From: a virus | Direction: 5' to 3' (one strand) | DNA: 25,467 nt | Virus record (IMG/VR): IMGVR_UViG_3300009075_000016 | Location: 1-25,467 of that record | Part shown: one piece after another, positions 655-21,584 of the stretch | Layout: each line of letters begins with the position of its first letter | Position numbering within the stretch: position 1 is the stretch's first letter | Made by a program: the position numbers and the translations under genes | The notes under the pieces: generated by a model | Database searches by the model: none | Told to the model about the DNA's origin: nothing | The model's input: the letters and a program-made list of their open reading frames with translations, nothing else

Positions 655-795
655 ATGCAAGAAATGAAGGATGAGCTATTATTATTCTTTTTGTTTCTAT
701 TAGGAAGACTAATATTTGGCGCATTCTATCTCATTGCTATATTCTTGTGTTTCCTAACGATCGGTCCTATCCTTCGTTGGTTAATAGGATTTTAA
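655..795 (+). CDS. Small membrane protein upstream of RNA polymerase, 46 aa
   Basis: The ATG at 655 opens a 46-codon frame whose TAA (793-795) overlaps the polymerase ATG at 795 by one base (TAATG), the pattern used between many real genes in this window. After MQEMKDE the protein is almost entirely hydrophobic (LLLFFLFLLGRLIFGAFYLI), compatible with one or two membrane helices. No family recognised. Its support is the coupling and the clean hydrophobic pattern. Confidence 0.55.
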   Translation: MQEMKDELLLFFLFLLGRLIFGAFYLIAIFLCFLTIGPILRWLIGF

Positions 796-3032
796 TGAGA
801 AATCAAATTATTGAATCTCTCGTGTCCCGCATAAAAACAGAAATTCCAGAAAGAAGTACTTTGAAGTATCTTCAGAAACTAGATGTCGAAGATTATATCG
901 ACTCTGTTATTTCTGTTTTATATCTATACACTCGCGTAAAAAGAGGAGCACATCGTAATAGTGTTTATCTCACTGAAGTTATTTGTGCAATTGGTCATAA
1001 CATTCGTAATAAATATAAGCTTAAAAGAGATTCTGCATTAGCTGCTAAGACTGGCGCATTTATCCTTTATACATTTGAGCTTGCGTGTATTCTTCAAGTC
1101 GTATTAGGGCAAGGTGCTAAAGGGCATGCTGCTTATATCATTCAGGTGTTAGATGATGATGAGCTTAGTAAATTGTGGGATAATCTTGAACCATCAAAAA
1201 TTGAAAAACTTCCATCAGAAGTTCCATATTCACCCTGGACAACAACTAAGCATGCAACTGGAATGCTGCTTGTAAAGACGGGTAATAAGGATGTACTTGA
1301 TAAAATTAGCCTTGAAACGCATCCCATCATTTTTGATTGTGTTAATAAAGCACAAACTGTAGGGTGGACTATTAATGAATATATTTACAACTTACATCTC
1401 TGGGCACTTCGAAACAAAACGGAGGCATTCTCAGACATATGGGAATTACACAACCCTGAAGCTCGTGCTACCAAGATCCGAGAAGCAAAAGCTGTTGGAG
1501 GAATTGCTAAAAGATTCCTCGGAAAACAATTCTTTCACTTGTACTATTTCGATTTTAGAGGACGGAAGTATCCGGCCACCGCTTATCTCCATGAGCAAGG
1601 TTCAGACCTTGCCAGAGGGCTATTGCTCCGTAGAGATAAGAAGGCTATCGGGAAAGCAGGATTCTTCTGGCTATGTGTGTCAGTTGCCTCTAACTGGGCA
1701 GGGGACGCAGGACGTGAAGATGGGGCGAAAACCGACAAGATACCCCTTAAAGATCGATTTGAATGGACTATCGATAATGAAGAAATCATTATTTCCTATG
1801 CGGAAAACCCCAAAGTCAACCAAGGGTGGATGAAAGCTGATAAGCCTTGGCAGTTCCTTGCGGCATGTCATGAACTAATGCAAGTTAGAATTCATCAAGC
1901 TGCTGTTAATGATCTTGAAGATTATTCTTACGAATCTAACCTTGAAGTTTATATCGATGGCTCCAATAATGGTTCTCAACATCTCTCTGCTTTAACTAAA
2001 GATGAGCTTACGGCGCCTCATGTGAATCTCGTACCACTAGATTTACCAGGTGATCTTTATAAGTATGTAAGCGATCATGTTTGGGTAAGACTAAATAAAG
2101 TTTTAAGTGAGATGACTAAGAAGGAAATTGCTGATTGTGAAAAATTGATTGATGAGCTTATAGATCTTAAAAAGCAGATTAATGATTCAGAGCCTAAAAG
2201 CGAACGTCGTAGAGAGCTTATTTCAAAGATACAAAGCTTCAAAGATCGTAATAAAGAGCTAATGAATATCGCTGCTCCAGTCTATTGGGCTAGAATTAAA
2301 GACTTCAAGCAGAGACGTAAGATCGTGAAACGCAACGTTATGACACTTCCTTATGGAGGAACCGCTTATGGCCTTGGTGAGCAGCAGATCGATGATGCGC
2401 GAAAGCATGGTATTGAATTACTCCTACACATGGAACATCGATGGGGAGCCTACCTTGGACGTGAAGTCTTTGCAGATTGTAGAGTGTCTCTCCGCAGACC
2501 TATGCAATTGCTCTCTATATTTGAAAATGCTGGAAAGCGTGCTGAAAGCGAAGGTAGATTCCTTTCCTGGACAGTCCCCATTACAAATTTCCCTGTCGTT
2601 CAAAATTACACAGAAGGAAAGGTAAAGAAAATATGGGTGCAGTATGGACCGACAGATGGTGAAAAGACTAGCACTGGATATTACGATAATACTTTGCAGC
2701 TTGCAATTTGCTTTATTGAAGATGTTAAACCATCTAAAGGAAAGCAGTCCCAAGGTGCATCTCCTAATGCTATCCACAGTCTTGATGCTGCTCATCTCGC
2801 TCTTACTGTCCATAAGGCTTCTTTTCCAGTAAGCACTGTACATGATTCTTTCGGATGTCTTCTGGCTGATATGCCTGAATTATACACACTAATCAGAAAG
2901 ACTTTCGTTGAGCTTTATGAAGCAGACCCTCTAACAAGTATTATGAAAGATATTAATGGTGATATCAGTGGTATTGAATTCGGTACCTTAGATATTAAAC
3001 TCATCTTAAATTCGGAGTACTGCTTTGCATGA
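795..3032 (+). CDS. T7-type single-subunit DNA-directed RNA polymerase
   Basis: Transcribes phage genes from phage-specific promoters. All landmark motifs of the family are present (numbering from 795). DFRGRKYP at about 253 matches the T7 DYRGRVY block. Motif A YIDGSNNGSQHLSAL carries catalytic Asp388. Motif B KRNVMTLPYGG carries Lys512 and Tyr520, equivalent to T7 K631 and Y639. Motif C HDSFG carries the second catalytic Asp684. At 745 aa it is shorter than T7 RNAP (883 aa), mostly at the N-terminus. I prefer ATG 795 over the in-frame GTG at 747 because AGGA (786-789) is correctly spaced and the ATG overlaps the preceding stop. The stop overlaps the next start (ATGA). Likely promoters it reads are at 3798 and 15516. 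Confidence 0.96.
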   Translation: MRNQIIESLVSRIKTEIPERSTLKYLQKLDVEDYIDSVISVLYLYTRVKRGAHRNSVYLTEVICAIGHNIRNKYKLKRDSALAAKTGAFILYTFELACILQVVLGQGAKGHAAYIIQVLDDDELSKLWDNLEPSKIEKLPSEVPYSPWTTTKHATGMLLVKTGNKDVLDKISLETHPIIFDCVNKAQTVGWTINEYIYNLHLWALRNKTEAFSDIWELHNPEARATKIREAKAVGGIAKRFLGKQFFHLYYFDFRGRKYPATAYLHEQGSDLARGLLLRRDKKAIGKAGFFWLCVSVASNWAGDAGREDGAKTDKIPLKDRFEWTIDNEEIIISYAENPKVNQGWMKADKPWQFLAACHELMQVRIHQAAVNDLEDYSYESNLEVYIDGSNNGSQHLSALTKDELTAPHVNLVPLDLPGDLYKYVSDHVWVRLNKVLSEMTKKEIADCEKLIDELIDLKKQINDSEPKSERRRELISKIQSFKDRNKELMNIAAPVYWARIKDFKQRRKIVKRNVMTLPYGGTAYGLGEQQIDDARKHGIELLLHMEHRWGAYLGREVFADCRVSLRRPMQLLSIFENAGKRAESEGRFLSWTVPITNFPVVQNYTEGKVKKIWVQYGPTDGEKTSTGYYDNTLQLAICFIEDVKPSKGKQSQGASPNAIHSLDAAHLALTVHKASFPVSTVHDSFGCLLADMPELYTLIRKTFVELYEADPLTSIMKDINGDISGIEFGTLDIKLILNSEYCFA

Positions 3033-11003: not shown

Positions 11004-12919
11004 TGACGGAAACAACAACGCCTTGGTCGTCCGTAGGTTACTTAACGTACAAGCGGACGTACGCAAGAAAATTTGAAGGAGAAACAGGAGCAGATGCTCC
11101 AACTGAAGAATTTCCAGATACTATTGAACGTGTATTAGGTGCATGTAAAGATCAATTGAAAGTTGGTTTCACTGAAGATGAAGAGGATCGTATTCGTGAA
11201 TACATGCTCGCGCTTAAGTGTTCTGTTGCAGGAAGATTCTTATGGCAACTTGGCACAAAGACTGTAGACAGACTGGGCTTAGCTTCACTCCAGAATTGTG
11301 CTTTCACTGTAGTAGATCGACCCATACGCCCTTTCTGTTGGGCAATGGACATGCTGGCACTTGGATCCGGTGTGGGCTACAACATTCAGAAAGTACACGT
11401 AGACAAACTTCCAGTAGTGAGGGATTGGTTCAAAGCACCTACAAGAGTTAATCATGCTGGTGCAGATTTCATAATCCCAGATTCTAGAGAAGGTTGGGTT
11501 AAGTTTCTTGGCAAAACATTAAAGGCAGCATTTTTAAGTGAACGACAAGAGAACGGGACCTTTACCTTCTCTACCCAAGTTGTACGTGGAAAAGGGTCTC
11601 CCATCGGAGGCTTTGGCGGCGTGGCTTCAGGCCCTGAAGATCTTGTGTGGGGCATCGGAAAAATCTCTGAAGTCCTTGAACGACGACGTGGAAAGAAAAT
11701 AAGGCCCATTGATGCTTTAGACATCATGAATATTATTGGCAAAATTATTGTTGCCGGTAATGTCAGACGTTCAGCGCAGATAGCAATAGGTGATCCTGAT
11801 GACATCGAATATTTATTGGCTAAGAGATGGGATATTGGCAATATTCCCCCTTGGAGGGATATGTCCAATAATTCTGTTGCCTGCGACGATCTCCGTGATC
11901 TTCATGAATACTTCTGGCATGGATATGAGGGTAAAGGAGAACCTTATGGTCTCATTAACCTTCGCTTATCGCGTAAGGTTGGAAGACTTAATGAGACTGA
12001 GTACCCTGATCCGGAAGTGATGGGTTACAATCCCTGTGCAGAGCAGTCGTTGGCTCCATATGAGACTTGTTGTCTTGCTGAAGTTTTTCTTCCCAATGTG
12101 GAATCTAAAGAAGAATTCCTAGATATCCTTGAATTGCTTTATAGGATTAATAAACATTCTTTGATTCTTCCTTCTCATCACCCTGAAACGGGTCAAATTG
12201 TTCATAAGAACATGAGAATGGGAATTGGTCTTACTGGTATCTTACAAGCCTCTAAAGAGCAAAATTCTTGGTTAGCTGATGGCTATAAATATCTTCGTGA
12301 TTTTGACGCGCGTTACTCTACTATGCACGGTTTCAATCGCTCTATCAAGCTTACGACCGTTAAACCATCTGGTACTTTAAGTCTGCTTCCAGGAGTAACA
12401 CCTGGTATTCATCCTGCATATGCACAGTATATGTATAGGCGAATACGTATTGCTTCTGATCATAAGCTAGTTGCAGTTTGCCGTGAGCATGGTTACCCTG
12501 TTGAATATCAATTAAACATAGATGGTTCTGAAGATTACGGTACAGTTGTTGTTACGTTCCCGTTTGCATATCCTGAAGGGACACGTCTTGCAAAGGACAT
12601 GACAGCACTTGATCAATTAAATGAGATTAAGCGTCTTCAAACCATATGGTCTGATAATAGTGTTTCTTGTACAGTGTATTACAAGAAAGAAGAGATTCCT
12701 GAAATTCGTGACTATCTAAATCGCTATTACAAGAATAATCATAAGAGTTTATCTTTCTTGTTACATTCAGAACATGGATTCAAACAGGCTCCGTTACAAG
12801 AAGTTACAAAAGAAGAGTACGAAAAGTTAGTAGAAAGTACTGAGATTATTACATCATTATCCAATGCCGAATTCGAGATGTCCGGTGAATGCGATAATGG
12901 CGCATGTCCGCTTAAATAA
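11003..12919 (+). CDS. nrdJ: Adenosylcobalamin-dependent ribonucleotide reductase (class II, monomeric type)
   Basis: Converts ribonucleotides to deoxyribonucleotides using a B12 radical, so it works with or without oxygen but needs host cobalamin. Signature of the monomeric triphosphate reductase type: QNCAFTV (Cys99, redox pair), NPCAEQ (Cys345 thiyl, Glu347), ETCCLAEVF (Cys356/357, second redox cysteine), PSGTLSLLPGVTPGIHP phosphate-binding loop, and a C-terminal C-x4-C (Cys630, Cys635) that re-reduces the active site. At 638 aa it is about 100 shorter than the Lactobacillus leichmannii enzyme (739), with no visible break. Coupled to the upstream gene by TAATG and followed by a terminator. 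Confidence 0.94.
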   Translation: MTETTTPWSSVGYLTYKRTYARKFEGETGADAPTEEFPDTIERVLGACKDQLKVGFTEDEEDRIREYMLALKCSVAGRFLWQLGTKTVDRLGLASLQNCAFTVVDRPIRPFCWAMDMLALGSGVGYNIQKVHVDKLPVVRDWFKAPTRVNHAGADFIIPDSREGWVKFLGKTLKAAFLSERQENGTFTFSTQVVRGKGSPIGGFGGVASGPEDLVWGIGKISEVLERRRGKKIRPIDALDIMNIIGKIIVAGNVRRSAQIAIGDPDDIEYLLAKRWDIGNIPPWRDMSNNSVACDDLRDLHEYFWHGYEGKGEPYGLINLRLSRKVGRLNETEYPDPEVMGYNPCAEQSLAPYETCCLAEVFLPNVESKEEFLDILELLYRINKHSLILPSHHPETGQIVHKNMRMGIGLTGILQASKEQNSWLADGYKYLRDFDARYSTMHGFNRSIKLTTVKPSGTLSLLPGVTPGIHPAYAQYMYRRIRIASDHKLVAVCREHGYPVEYQLNIDGSEDYGTVVVTFPFAYPEGTRLAKDMTALDQLNEIKRLQTIWSDNSVSCTVYYKKEEIPEIRDYLNRYYKNNHKSLSFLLHSEHGFKQAPLQEVTKEEYEKLVESTEIITSLSNAEFEMSGECDNGACPLK

Positions 12920-18116: not shown

Positions 18117-18190
18117 TCAGGGATCGTCTAAAGGCAGGACAGCAGCCTTTGAAGCTGTGAATCGAGGTTCGAATCCTTGTCCCTGAACCA
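18117..18190 (+). tRNA. tRNA-Gln (UUG)
   Basis: Acceptor TCAGGGA pairs with TCCCTGA; anticodon stem GCAGC/GCTGT with loop CTTTGAA gives anticodon TTG (reads CAA); T stem CGAGG/CCTTG with loop TTCGAAT; CCA encoded (18188-18190). The UCAGGGA-type 5' end with its mostly G/C acceptor is acceptable for a phage tRNA-Gln. Confidence 0.93.
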
Positions 18191-18194
18191 CATA

Positions 18195-18247
18195 CGGTAC
18201 GGATTTGTTGGGTTCCAAATCACGTACGCCGGATGATCGTAACCGGC
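18195..18247 (+). repeat. Two-hairpin RNA element, copy A
   Basis: Stem 1: GTACG (18197-18201) with CGTAC (18223-18227) and GATTTG (18202-18207) with CAAATC (18216-18221), one bulged A. Stem 2 abuts it: GCCGG (18228-18232) with CCGGC (18243-18247), loop ATGATCGTAA. A second copy with different stem sequence but the same fold lies at 20980-21049. It starts four bases after the tRNA-Gln CCA, upstream of a small membrane protein gene. Bases 18248-18317 hold only an AT-rich leader and ribosome site. Confidence 0.65.
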
Positions 18248-18317
18248 ACTTCTATTCTTTAAATGCAAAATCGTTGAAAGTAGTAGTTAAATTAATGAAG
18301 AGTAACGAGGGACTACT

Positions 18318-18443
18318 ATGAGTAAATTGAAAAAGTTTAAAATAACTGATATCGGTATGATTATTTTAGTCGGTATTGTTGCTGCAGGTCTTATATTCTT
18401 TGTTATTGGCTTTCCAGAATTAGGCTGGATTACTAACCGATAA
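18318..18443 (+). CDS. Small single-pass membrane protein, 41 aa
   Basis: The ATG at 18318 follows GAGGGACTACT. Product: basic start (MSKLKKFKITDIG), one long hydrophobic segment (MIILVGIVAAGLIFFVIGF), short C-terminus (PELGWITNR), so probably N-inside. It lies between the two-hairpin element and tRNA-Thr. No family recognised. Confidence 0.6.
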   Translation: MSKLKKFKITDIGMIILVGIVAAGLIFFVIGFPELGWITNR

Positions 18444-18450
18444 TTTTAAA

Positions 18451-18524
18451 GCCCCTATAGTTAAACGGCATAACAGCACACTTGTAATGTGCGGTTCGTG
18501 GTTCAATTCCATGTGGGGGCACCA
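18451..18524 (+). tRNA. tRNA-Thr (UGU)
   Basis: Acceptor GCCCCTA pairs with TGGGGGC (one G-U, one A-T); D arm GTTA/TAAC; anticodon stem GCACA/TGTGC with loop CTTGTAA gives anticodon TGT (reads ACA); T stem GTGG/CCAT with loop TTCAATT; CCA encoded (18522-18524). Confidence 0.92.
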
Positions 18525-18537
18525 CTTAGGAATTACA

Positions 18538-18684
18538 ATGAAAGCTAGAGTAACCCGAGCGACTTTTATTGAAAGAGCTCACAACGATTACGCGATTGCT
18601 CGTTTTTATGGTAAAGGTAAAGTACGTGCTTTCTTTTCTGCTATTTGGCGTACATGGTATTTACGAGATGAATGGGTAGATTAA
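18538..18684 (+). CDS. Small basic protein, 48 aa
   Basis: The ATG at 18538 has TAGGA just upstream; a longer frame would run back into tRNA-Thr and is rejected. Basic and aromatic (TRATFIERAHNDYAIARFYG, then RAFFSAIWRTWYLRDEW). No family recognised. The stop overlaps the next ATG. Confidence 0.58.
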   Translation: MKARVTRATFIERAHNDYAIARFYGKGKVRAFFSAIWRTWYLRDEWVD

Positions 18685-18902
18685 TGTCAGATTTAATATT
18701 AGAGAATCTTAAATATTTCGCTCAAATACAACAAGGAGAGATATGGACAGAACGGCATTGGAGACTTGCTTTTGAGACAATGCTGGAATATGAAAAGATT
18801 GCCCCTAAAGAACAAACAATATGTCAAAAGACTGGCTCACATACGTATTCTTTCGGTAGTACAAAATGTGTTTTCTGCGATAACCATTTGAGTATATATT
18901 AA
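18684..18902 (+). CDS. Small protein with C-terminal zinc-like site, 72 aa
   Basis: The ATG at 18684 overlaps the preceding stop. Helical acidic N-terminal half (LENLKYFAQIQQGEIWTERH), then CQKTGSHTYSFGSTKCVFCD near the end, a Cys/His...C-x2-C arrangement able to bind one metal. No family recognised. The stop overlaps the next start. Confidence 0.68.
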   Translation: MSDLILENLKYFAQIQQGEIWTERHWRLAFETMLEYEKIAPKEQTICQKTGSHTYSFGSTKCVFCDNHLSIY

Positions 18903-19288
18903 TGAACAAACTATTTTATGATGATGGAAGAATTTTTATGGAGGTTACTCCAGTTAAAGCGCTATTTCACAGCGGTTTAATTCATGATGTTATTACGAAA
19001 GGAGGTAAGTTTGTTGTTGATCTTAATACCAATGAACTTACAATTTATAGGCCAAAGGTTGAGAAGCCTAAGAAGAAGGTGAATCCTAGATATAAACCTC
19101 TTCATGAACCTACAATCACAATCTCAGATGATCTTGATGTAGCTCTTGTTCAATTAGCTGATCAATATTACCTTGGAAAACATCTGGGTAACTTTTACTA
19201 TGGTGATTCTAAAAACCGTAGAAGAGTTTTTTCTAATGGAGATTGGGAAGCATTTAAAGAAACTGTAATAAGGTTTTACAGAGAATAA
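18902..19288 (+). CDS. Hypothetical protein, 128 aa
   Basis: Coupled to the upstream gene by TAATG. Two parts are visible: an N-terminal beta-looking region (residues 1-52), a proline/lysine-rich linker (VEKPKKKVNPRYKPLHEP, about 53-70), and a C-terminal region with basic helices (KNRRRVFSNGDWEAFKETVI). It ends just before the leader of the secreted protein gene. No family recognised. Confidence 0.75.
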   Translation: MNKLFYDDGRIFMEVTPVKALFHSGLIHDVITKGGKFVVDLNTNELTIYRPKVEKPKKKVNPRYKPLHEPTITISDDLDVALVQLADQYYLGKHLGNFYYGDSKNRRRVFSNGDWEAFKETVIRFYRE

Positions 19289-19294
19289 AGCGAT

Positions 19295-19356
19295 ATATCT
19301 CGCCATCAAATAGAAATATAAAGATAAGTTTAAACTAAATTAGATGAGCGAGATAT
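19295..19356 (+). promoter_or_regulatory. Inverted repeat that can mask a start codon
   Basis: ATATCTCGC (19295-19303) and GCGAGATAT (19348-19356) are perfect 9-bp arms; the second arm covers the weak ribosome site and the first two bases of the ATG (19355). The 44-base spacer is AT-rich and contains the palindrome AGTTTAAACT. In RNA this stem would hide the start, suggesting translational control or an operator straddling the leader. Confidence 0.5.
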
Positions 19357-20182
19357 GAAAAAATTGACTTCATTCTTAGTCCTGACGTTCTGTTCAATGA
19401 GCGTATTTGCAGGATCTGCCATTGTTTCCTGGACCAATCCTACAACGAATACAGATGGTACTTTTATTCCGACAACAGGTCCAGGTTCTTTGGTTTCGAC
19501 ACGCGTTCGATGGGGTACTTGCATTAGTGGAAATATCTTTGGAACACAGCAAGGGCAAGTAGTTGCTAATGCACCAGCAAGTAGTGTTGAAATTAGTATG
19601 CTACCTTCTGGCACTTATTGTTTTGATGCTTTTTCATTAAACACATATGGTGTAGAATCTGTTGCAAGTAATGTAGCTTCTAAAGTTGTAGAAGATCCCA
19701 ATAATGCGCCTGTTCTCACAAATCCAGGTGGAAGGACATCTATTAGAGGTGTAGCAACTACGTTACAATTAGTCGCTACAGACGTTGACTCCGATGCGTT
19801 AACATATTCTGCGGTAGGAATGCCTCCTGGTATAACGATCAATTCCGCTGGTTTATTTAGCGGTATTCCGACGACTGTTGGTGCTTATTCTGTAATTGCA
19901 ACTGTTACCGATGTGCATGGGGATAGTGATTCAGAGGTCTTTACTTGGACAATCAATAATCCTCCTACACCGAACCCGCCGACAATTACAGTGCAGACTT
20001 ATGCGTATGAATTAAATAACAGGAAGTTAGGTCGTATCGTTGCAAGCATACCTCTTGGTGTTGCATGCTATGAAGGTGCTATTTTAAGTAAGAATGGTCT
20101 TACTTACTATCAAGTTCCGGCATCAGCAGTTACTGTGACATCTAAGGTACGCTCTAATGTATTTATGGCAGCTTGCGCGTAA
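19355..20182 (+). CDS. Secreted fibronectin III / Ig-like domain protein, 275 aa
   Basis: Sec signal peptide MKKLTSFLVLTFCSMSVFA with likely cleavage before Gly20. Residues ~20-112 look like a fibronectin type III fold (SAIVSWTNPTTNTDG ... SGTYCFDAFSLNTYGVESV). Residues ~115-200 match a putative Ig domain of the He_PIG type (DVDSDALTYSAVGMPPGITI, then SAGLFSGIPTTVGAYSV). A proline linker and a C-terminal domain with two cysteines follow. Export to periplasm or cell surface is likely. It is unlike a tail protein (small, signal peptide, among tRNAs), so it is probably a host-modifying cargo gene (moron): adhesion, exclusion or host fitness are possibilities. Bounded by an inverted repeat and tRNA-Leu. 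Confidence 0.85.
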   Translation: MKKLTSFLVLTFCSMSVFAGSAIVSWTNPTTNTDGTFIPTTGPGSLVSTRVRWGTCISGNIFGTQQGQVVANAPASSVEISMLPSGTYCFDAFSLNTYGVESVASNVASKVVEDPNNAPVLTNPGGRTSIRGVATTLQLVATDVDSDALTYSAVGMPPGITINSAGLFSGIPTTVGAYSVIATVTDVHGDSDSEVFTWTINNPPTPNPPTITVQTYAYELNNRKLGRIVASIPLGVACYEGAILSKNGLTYYQVPASAVTVTSKVRSNVFMAACA

Positions 20183-20192
20183 GGGGTCTTAA

Positions 20193-20277
20193 GCGATCGT
20201 GGTGGAACTGGTATACACAACAGACTTAAAATCTGTCGCCTAAAGGCTTGTGGGTTCGAGTCCCACCGATCGCACCA
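20193..20277 (+). tRNA. tRNA-Leu (UAA)
   Basis: Acceptor GCGATCG pairs with CGATCGC; anticodon stem ACAGA/TCTGT with loop CTTAAAA gives anticodon TAA (reads TTA); long variable arm CGCCTAAAGGCT, typical of class II tRNAs; T stem GTGGG/CCCAC with loop TTCGAGT; CCA encoded (20275-20277). Confidence 0.94.
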
Positions 20278-20290
20278 TTTGGAGCAAAAT

Positions 20291-20509
20291 ATGGATCTTG
20301 AAACATTCAAGCAGGATTTGGAAACAATACATAATAAATTAATTGATGTTCGTGATTGGATAACACATGAGCATATTTCAGAGGTATTTTCAGACGCGTA
20401 CATTATCAACACTTTTGAGCATATTGAAGATGAACTTCTTTCACTAGAAGTTTATGTAGTCGAGATGAATGAAGAGAAAAGGGATGACCAAATTCCAATT
20501 GTTTTGTAA
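20291..20509 (+). CDS. Small acidic helical protein, 72 aa
   Basis: The ATG at 20291 has GGAG seven bases upstream, directly after tRNA-Leu. Acidic, mostly helical (MDLETFKQDLETIHNKLIDV, FEHIEDELLSLEVYVVEM). No family recognised. Confidence 0.68.
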   Translation: MDLETFKQDLETIHNKLIDVRDWITHEHISEVFSDAYIINTFEHIEDELLSLEVYVVEMNEEKRDDQIPIVL

Positions 20510-20660
20510 AAGCAATCCTCAAATTATTGGTAATAAATCTTTTGAAAAGTTCTTAGAGTATTATCCAGGACTTGATAAACGAGAAAGAAAGACTGAGTAC
20601 CAGCGTCAAATGACAGAGTTATTTTTTAATCAATGTTCTAAGGAGCTTGAGATGAAGTAG
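20469..20660 (+). CDS. Small basic hypothetical protein, 63 aa
   Basis: Overlaps the previous gene by 41 bp in another frame; ATG 20469 or ATG 20484 could start it, neither with a strong ribosome site. Basic and aromatic (FQLFCKSNPQIIGNKSFEKF, LDKRERKTEYQRQM). No family recognised. Support is moderate because of the overlap. Confidence 0.5.
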   Translation: MKRKGMTKFQLFCKSNPQIIGNKSFEKFLEYYPGLDKRERKTEYQRQMTELFFNQCSKELEMK

Positions 20661-20681
20661 TTAAGCCTATGAGGGTACTTC

Positions 20682-20972
20682 ATGTCTCGTTTTTATCAAA
20701 ATAAAAAGTTTAAGTTGAAGAGAATTAGGCGTATCTATGATGATATGAGTCCTTTCGAACGACGCGAGTATACCAGGCGTTTAGACAAGTGGTGGAAAGC
20801 TTGGGTAACGCCTATTAACTATAGTGCTGTGCCTACCGAATGGAACAATTTAAATCATACTCGTCCTAATAGACGTTGGACTGAACGTAATTTAACAAAA
20901 GTAATTCATGGCTATGATGCAGATATTCTCTCATGGCCTGATTACAGAAAGCCTCTTCAATATTATTATTAA
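20682..20972 (+). CDS. Basic, Arg/Tyr/Trp-rich protein, 96 aa
   Basis: GAGGG lies upstream of the ATG. Strongly basic (MSRFYQNKKFKLKRIRRIYD, FERREYTRRLDKWWKAW), ending LQYYY. Such charge suggests RNA or DNA binding, but no family is recognised. It ends eight bases before copy B of the two-hairpin element. Confidence 0.68.
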   Translation: MSRFYQNKKFKLKRIRRIYDDMSPFERREYTRRLDKWWKAWVTPINYSAVPTEWNNLNHTRPNRRWTERNLTKVIHGYDADILSWPDYRKPLQYYY

Positions 20973-20979
20973 CGAAAAT

Positions 20980-21049
20980 CGGTACGTGTAAGCTCCCCGG
21001 CATTGCAAAAAGTGAGTTTACATAAGTACACCGGATAATCGTAACCGGT
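20980..21049 (+). repeat. Two-hairpin RNA element, copy B
   Basis: Stem 1: GTAC (20982-20985) with GTAC (21026-21029), then TGTAAGCTC (20987-20995) with GAGTTTACA (21014-21022), 9 bp including one G-U. Stem 2 abuts it: ACCGG (21030-21034) with CCGGT (21045-21049), loop ATAATCGTAA. Compared with copy A (18195-18247), the closing pair of stem 2 changes G-C to A-T and stem 1 differs almost completely while staying paired, whereas CGGTACG at the 5' end and the 10-nt loop are kept. It lies 15 bp before the next gene's ATG. Confidence 0.65.
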
Positions 21050-21063
21050 TTTAGGAGATTTAA

Positions 21064-21369
21064 ATGGATGATAAGTTATGGGCTAATGAGTCTTTGCGAA
21101 TGGCGCTGCAACAAATCAAAGATGTAGAAACCAAATCTTTGCATGAGGAGATAGATCGTTTACAGCGCGAGCTGACCGAGGCACGTTCCGAACGTAACAC
21201 TTGGGAAGATACGGCCAGTTACCATTATGCTGAATCTTGTGACAATGAGCGTAAATTGACCGAGGCAAAAGAACTGCTGCGGGATGCGCGGGATCGGTTC
21301 AGCTTTGTCAGCGACACGCTGCATGACCGCATCGACGCCTTCCTCGCCGAAAAGGAGGGTGAGCGATGA
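21064..21369 (+). CDS. Coiled-coil protein with mosaic composition, 101 aa
   Basis: TAGGAG is upstream of the ATG. Long helix with heptad pattern (LHEEIDRLQRELTEARSERN, LTEAKELLRDARDRF), so probably a coiled-coil oligomer. Base composition changes inside the gene: the first third is AT-rich like its neighbours, the rest (from about 21260) GC-rich, continuing into the next gene. This looks like a recombination join. The stop overlaps the next start (ATGA). Confidence 0.7.
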   Translation: MDDKLWANESLRMALQQIKDVETKSLHEEIDRLQRELTEARSERNTWEDTASYHYAESCDNERKLTEAKELLRDARDRFSFVSDTLHDRIDAFLAEKEGER

Positions 21370-21584
21370 GCGACACGATTCCCACCGCATTCACGGTGCC
21401 GCTTGTGGAGTTCACGCGCCTCGCTACGGAGCGTGATCGCCTGCGCCGCGAACTGGCCGAAGCGCATAAGTGGATTAGAAATACGCCACATCGAACGGAT
21501 TGTCCAAGTCGTTTGTTACCAGACTTTTATCAAGGACAGCAAATCCCTTGTACATGTGGTCGTAATCGTTTAGCGGAAAAATAG
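21366..21584 (+). CDS. Coiled-coil and cysteine motif protein, 72 aa
   Basis: ATGA overlap with the gene before. The N-terminal half repeats the coiled-coil wording of its neighbour (ATERDRLRRELAEAHKWI; compare IDRLQRELTEAR), followed by TDCPSR and IPCTCGRNR, a C...C-x-C set that may bind metal. The GC-rich part ends near 21470, where the sequence returns to AT-rich. The shared RELxEA wording suggests the two genes arose by duplication or came in together. Confidence 0.65.
   Translation: MSDTIPTAFTVPLVEFTRLATERDRLRRELAEAHKWIRNTPHRTDCPSRLLPDFYQGQQIPCTCGRNRLAEK

Follow-up and report, generated by a model that had tools for sequence, protein, structure and literature searches.

The question raised by this locus is whether two short segments of a 25,467-bp virus record (IMGVR_UViG_3300009075_000016, analyzed over its whole length and here called the window) are copies of a functional RNA and, if so, what such an RNA might do in phages. 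A first-pass annotation of the window had taken them for an undescribed paired-hairpin RNA, and our analysis bears this out: many further copies exist in other phage genomes, stem 1 and the closing pair of stem 2 each show strong covariation, and there is no match in Rfam. We regard it as almost certain that the element is a real functional RNA family. How it acts is a more tentative matter, and the reading that we favor, an antitermination or anti-polarity mechanism, has in our estimate a probability of roughly one in three.

The element begins with a 5' dinucleotide, continues with a hairpin (P1) that is followed directly by a second hairpin (P2), and usually closes with an A. P2 in its usual form is GCCGG-A-N4-XX-UAA-CCGGC, in which XX pairs with the 5' dinucleotide, and members of the main class follow the pattern CG - P1 hairpin - base - CYGG - A NNNN CGUAA - CCRG - base, usually then A. 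Because the base that joins P1 to P2 is paired to the one that follows CCRG (as G-C, as A-U in window copy 2, and also as U-A and C-G), the two hairpins lie flush. The sequence of P1 is free, with all Watson-Crick pair types plus G-U among its pairs, and its size varies, with a loop of 3 nt at the least and an insert of 67 nt at the most. The unbiased test of P1 is a shuffle comparison over 140 sites, in which CG plus a P1 of at least 5 bp plus G was present at 61 sites against 3.3 expected from dinucleotide shuffles; members of our alignment A1 were selected for at least three P1 pairs, so that its 100% pairing arises partly by construction. Pair counts were made on fixed-length pieces from which the P1 loop had been cut out.

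The partner of the 5' dinucleotide emerged from open-dinucleotide scans, in which the loop positions XX were left free and P1 was chosen regardless of its flank. In these scans GG, CA, and CC replace CG in the loop. CC precedes P1 in 32 of 41 good cases with GG loops, CA loops are paired with 5' TG (L361 and L354), CC loops are paired with 5' GG (L340 and L348), and a variant whose loop is one base shorter has loop AG with 5' CT (L107). Over all classes, the 5' and loop dinucleotides match in 108 of 157 sequences, compared with at most 74 in 10,000 shuffles; the sample includes some chance coding matches, which reduce this share, and each related sequence counts separately. On this comparative evidence, covariation across the family demonstrates the pseudoknot. 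The first-pass annotation had instead offered a pairing of the 5' CGG with the CCG of stem 2 that would allow two states; such a switch is not supported, as it is the loop of stem 2, and not its strand, that covaries with the 5' dinucleotide. A GTCG/CGAC pseudoknot inside the marine-type P1 insert was also rejected, as variants do not conserve it. In locus L122, a second copy with a shorter loop (A-AA-CG-UAA, ~11370-11416) lies downstream of the first, past a transfer RNA (tRNA), so that loop length can vary.

Wobble pairs point to the strand of the tRNAs and neighboring genes as the transcribed one, with 42 G-U against 19 A-C over all pairs and 7 against 0 at P1 pair 4. An element that works at the DNA level or on the opposite strand was rejected, since the wobble pairs fit the + strand, and nearby tRNAs all lie on the element's strand (28:0). 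Judged from the aligned sequences, selection is shown to act on the RNA fold, on one strand.

IMG/VR contigs were scanned for the core with patterns in which portions of P2 and of its loop were preset, and the conservation of CCGG, of the first loop A, and of UAA is therefore partly imposed by the scan patterns. The scans returned many loci with unrelated flanks that are alike in fold alone. At least 118 non-redundant sequences, among them 85 different outer P1 stems, satisfy both the P1 and the pseudoknot criteria; a few of the 118 are probably chance matches in coding DNA, and the family size is a lower bound. Several other pattern hits were set aside as chance matches (for example, L003, L009, L030, Pokken, and most hits in bacterial genomes). 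The training sequences of covariance model R1 exclude both window copies, yet R1 finds both. In Rfam 15, no family model hits the element, whether thresholds are set at gathering level or relaxed, and the matches obtained are to its neighbors only (tRNA, int-alpA, DUF2815, abiF, and others). Neither the core sequence nor a description of the element was found in the literature searched, which left out most subscription papers, so that an earlier description is possible.

In the window, the first-pass annotation had placed the copies at 18195-18247 and 20980-21049, and both were found there, on the + strand (Table 1). Their first stems had been said to pair despite differing in sequence, and the inner stem of P1 does differ (TGTAAGCTC..GAGTTTACA in copy 2, GATTTG..CAAATC in copy 1) and pairs in both copies, while the outer GTAC/GTAC is common to the two. 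The reported change of the stem 2 closing pair, from G-C in copy 1 to A-U in copy 2, is equally present, and so is the setting of copy 1 after tRNA-Gln and of copy 2 before the gene at 21064. The shared 23-mer GTACRCCGGATRATCGTAACCGG has two matches in the window at up to 3 mismatches and 0 in every shuffle. Two hairpins are predicted in each copy, with z values of about -2.4 (copy 1) and -2.0 (copy 2).

Table 1. The two element copies and adjoining features (window coordinates unless a locus is named)
Feature	Position	Strand	Basis
Element copy 1, whole	18195..18248	+	Covariance model R1, 41.5 bits; motif search
Copy 1, 5' CG, pseudoknot strand	18195..18196	+	Dinucleotide/P2-loop covariation across family
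Copy 1, hairpin P1; outer stem GTACG 18197-18201 / CGTAC 18223-18227, inner GATTTG/CAAATC	18197..18227	+	Fold; P1 pair counts
Copy 1, hairpin P2; GCCGG 18228-18232 / CCGGC 18243-18247, loop A-TGAT-CG-TAA, loop CG 18238-18239	18228..18247	+	Fold; closing-pair covariation
Element copy 2, whole	20980..21049	+	Covariance model R1, 23.2 bits; motif search
Copy 2, 5' CG, pseudoknot strand	20980..20981	+	Covariation with P2 loop across family
Copy 2, hairpin P1 with longer insert; outer stem GTAC 20982-20985 / GTAC 21026-21029	20982..21029	+	Fold; model match
Copy 2, hairpin P2; ACCGG 21030-21034 / CCGGT 21045-21049, A-U closing pair, loop A-TAAT-CG-TAA, loop CG 21040-21041	21030..21049	+	Fold; compensatory closing pair
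tRNA-Gln, ends 4 nt before copy 1	18117..18190	+	ARAGORN; Rfam
101-aa open reading frame, start 14 nt after copy 2, AGGAG upstream	21064..21369	+	Open reading frame list; sequence
int-alpA RNA (RF02996), directly downstream of element	L156 8069-8135; L114 2579-2645; L109 227-293; L137 5522-5588; L085 438-504		

The element is carried by many phages that are not related to one another, among them cultured ones that infect E. coli, Salmonella, Klebsiella, and Pseudomonas. Carriers in the Sashavirus/Nonanavirus group are Sashavirus phages and the BASEL phage Bas82, and others are Klebsiella Taipeivirus, Carvajevirus, Nouzillyvirus BUCT-XGG-1, and the Pseudomonas phages Torfinnsbu and Touem01, the last of the GG-loop class with a longer and imperfect P1. 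Lambdoid prophages of E. coli ET151 and of three other E. coli genomes carry it with stem 2 mismatched, and it is also found in Raoultella prophages. A match was obtained in 44 of 45 records, nearly all with exactly one copy; PDP46 has two, about 145 bp apart. By position, copies border untranslated small-RNA arrays and also stand where some operons begin.

These contexts lead us to favor, at the odds given above, an effect on the elongating polymerase, because there is usually one copy per genome and it is positioned before untranslated stretches. The RNA would fold while leaving RNA polymerase, and the folded RNA would then act on the elongation complex in the manner of the HK022 put RNA, so that polymerase could cross untranslated stretches, such as tRNA or small-RNA arrays and late-operon leaders, without terminating. 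A single copy per transcription unit would be sufficient for such an effect. The supports for this mechanism are contextual, namely, copy number, the strand of the tRNAs, long coding gaps, Q-like and terminase neighbors, and the absence of phrog_414 from most carriers. In the stretches viewed, the element lies in the longest coding gap in Bas82, Carvaje, and Torfinnsbu and in the second longest in BUCT-XGG-1. In lambdoid prophages it comes after genes for Q-like antiterminators, it precedes late genes in several lineages, and in a cluster of 10 loci terminase small subunit genes lie downstream of it. The gene for a T7-like RNA polymerase (phrog_414) is absent in 25 of 26 other carrier records tested, and carriers without it therefore probably rely on the host polymerase.

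Several observations weigh against an action on elongating polymerase. The window phage, which encodes a T7-like single-subunit RNA polymerase (phrog_414) at 747-3032, and one other carrier, the L193 record that is the sole exception among the 26, possess their own polymerase. Some copies sit between closely spaced protein genes without a small-RNA array, and in Torfinnsbu the element is located between the last tRNA and a terminator, beyond which lies a convergent gene. Promoters are not enriched upstream of the element, so that a promoter-proximal position was rejected as a rule, with a TTGACA-17-TATTGT site in the Sashavirus/Carvajevirus lineage as an exception. Downstream intrinsic terminators are slightly commoner than in controls, a weak difference of 39 against 26-29. 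Moreover, the relatives 9NA, SP-062, and PJ16 do without the element, and SP-062 and PJ16 retain a terminator in the corresponding gap. The comparison with put is also part of this count, as a search of the HK022 regions (L081/L082) with model R1 found nothing, BLAST hits of putL include no element carriers, and the joining base of the element pairs within P2, unlike G35 of put.

The put RNA (putL and putR) of HK022 is an RNA-only antiterminator that binds the zinc-binding domain of the RNA polymerase beta' subunit and is reported to act without a phage protein from sites near the early promoters PL and PR (PMC9378689). In putL, a pairing is formed between bases 3-7 and bases 15-19, the latter within the stem I loop region, and the essential G35, which joins the stems, pairs only with A9, outside stem II (PMC9378689). 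Like put, the element is a short phage RNA of the cis-acting kind with two neighboring stem-loops and a pseudoknot-like pairing. Their layouts differ, however, in that the loop paired with the 5' strand is that of the second hairpin in the element and that of the first in put, and a put-like unpaired joining G was rejected. While put lies near early promoters, the element is often found beside tRNAs and late genes, at varied positions; an early-operon reading of L122 and L188 was dropped after the sequence had been inspected. The element does not belong to the put family, and we class it as a kind of cis-acting structured phage RNA. It is possible, though somewhat short of an even chance, that it stands for a previously unknown group of transcription modifiers made of RNA only (or of ribozymes), widespread in phages, in which a minimal 33-nt pseudoknot would serve to transcribe or mature late operons and untranslated small-RNA arrays with no need of a dedicated protein.

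Tight spacing to structured neighbors makes a role in RNA processing or stability almost as likely as antitermination and thus its main rival. The pseudoknot may mark the edge of tRNA-sized RNAs within polycistronic phage transcripts, block exonucleases or RNase E, or help to set the ends of its neighbors. At many copies a tRNA begins 4-9 nt downstream or ends 4-7 nt upstream, in prophage loci int-alpA RNA starts 6-7 nt 3' of the element without overlap, and the small-RNA segments of the Nonanavirus gap are modular. Just downstream, a long helix closing a tRNA-sized segment (score of at least 18) is present in 36 of 116 loci, compared with 13-15 in two positional controls, a tendency that holds even where no RNA is annotated. 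Arrays of 10 to 26 tRNAs nevertheless hold just one copy, where a local signal would be expected at many places, and several copies adjoin no small RNA. That the element is a small self-cleaving ribozyme, with a cut in the transcript next to the pseudoknot, appears unlikely. A cut there would benefit the neighboring RNAs, and the size, the free P1, and the few fixed unpaired bases (the first loop A, UAA, and the A past P2) fit the style of small ribozymes and, with the compact pseudoknot, resemble small pseudoknot riboswitches and self-cleaving ribozymes in Rfam; yet no model of these families, known small ribozymes included, matches the element, and no candidate cleavage site is evident, since bases 5' of the element are unconserved.

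About as unlikely is a stand-alone small RNA, or a decoy for a host RNA-binding protein, that is freed from the array. The element does act as one module among small RNAs, and close relatives do without it, but a promoter of its own is not enriched and no antisense target region was identified. Regulation of the next gene in cis, by a riboswitch or a translational operator, is the least probable of these possibilities and has little in its favor beyond position: copy 2 lies shortly before an ATG with a ribosome-binding site, and some other copies are just before a start codon. There is no common downstream gene; the genes that follow fall into many unrelated clusters (terminase, primase, exonuclease, methyltransferase, lysozyme, Erf, and tRNA among them), the distance to them ranges from ~10 to >700 nt, and a conserved expression platform was not seen. 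The protein genes that precede the element are likewise unrelated, and head proteins are among them.

The family, compact, strongly covarying, and without an Rfam entry, is present in unrelated cultured phages and in E. coli and Raoultella prophages, so that its function can be probed directly in laboratory strains. Should RNA polymerase be its target, the element would join put as an RNA-only antiterminator, and a role in RNA processing would reveal how arrays of tRNAs and small RNAs are matured in phages. It also offers a handle for locating unannotated small-RNA arrays in phage genomes.

The int-alpA RNA is, like the element, a small structured phage RNA and an orphan, but a separate one, and the two form a tandem of orphan phage RNAs in prophages. 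Other orphan phage RNAs, abiF RNA and DUF2815 RNA, are found near the element in L110 (2811-2847 and 4652-4712) and L025 (6470-6530). In Sashavirus, Nonanavirus, and Carvajevirus (L076, L077, L078, L157, L380, L381, and L382), the noncoding gap behind the neighbor of the major head protein gene is pieced together from tRNA-sized modules, each closed by a stem. The element is one such module, and the modules vary from one close relative to the next. Touem01 has a 945-nt gap without annotated genes (L370, 1970-2915) that contains the element and several T-arm-like sequences (GGTTCAA..); ARAGORN found no tRNA in this gap, and the T-arm-like sequences are possibly degenerate or unusual tRNAs. The window phage itself encodes, in addition to its RNA polymerase, a DNA polymerase, primase/helicase, ribonucleotide reductase, ligase, and four tRNAs. 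Just past copy 2, a G+C-rich patch (~21150-21470) stands out from A+T-rich surroundings and may be a recent acquisition.

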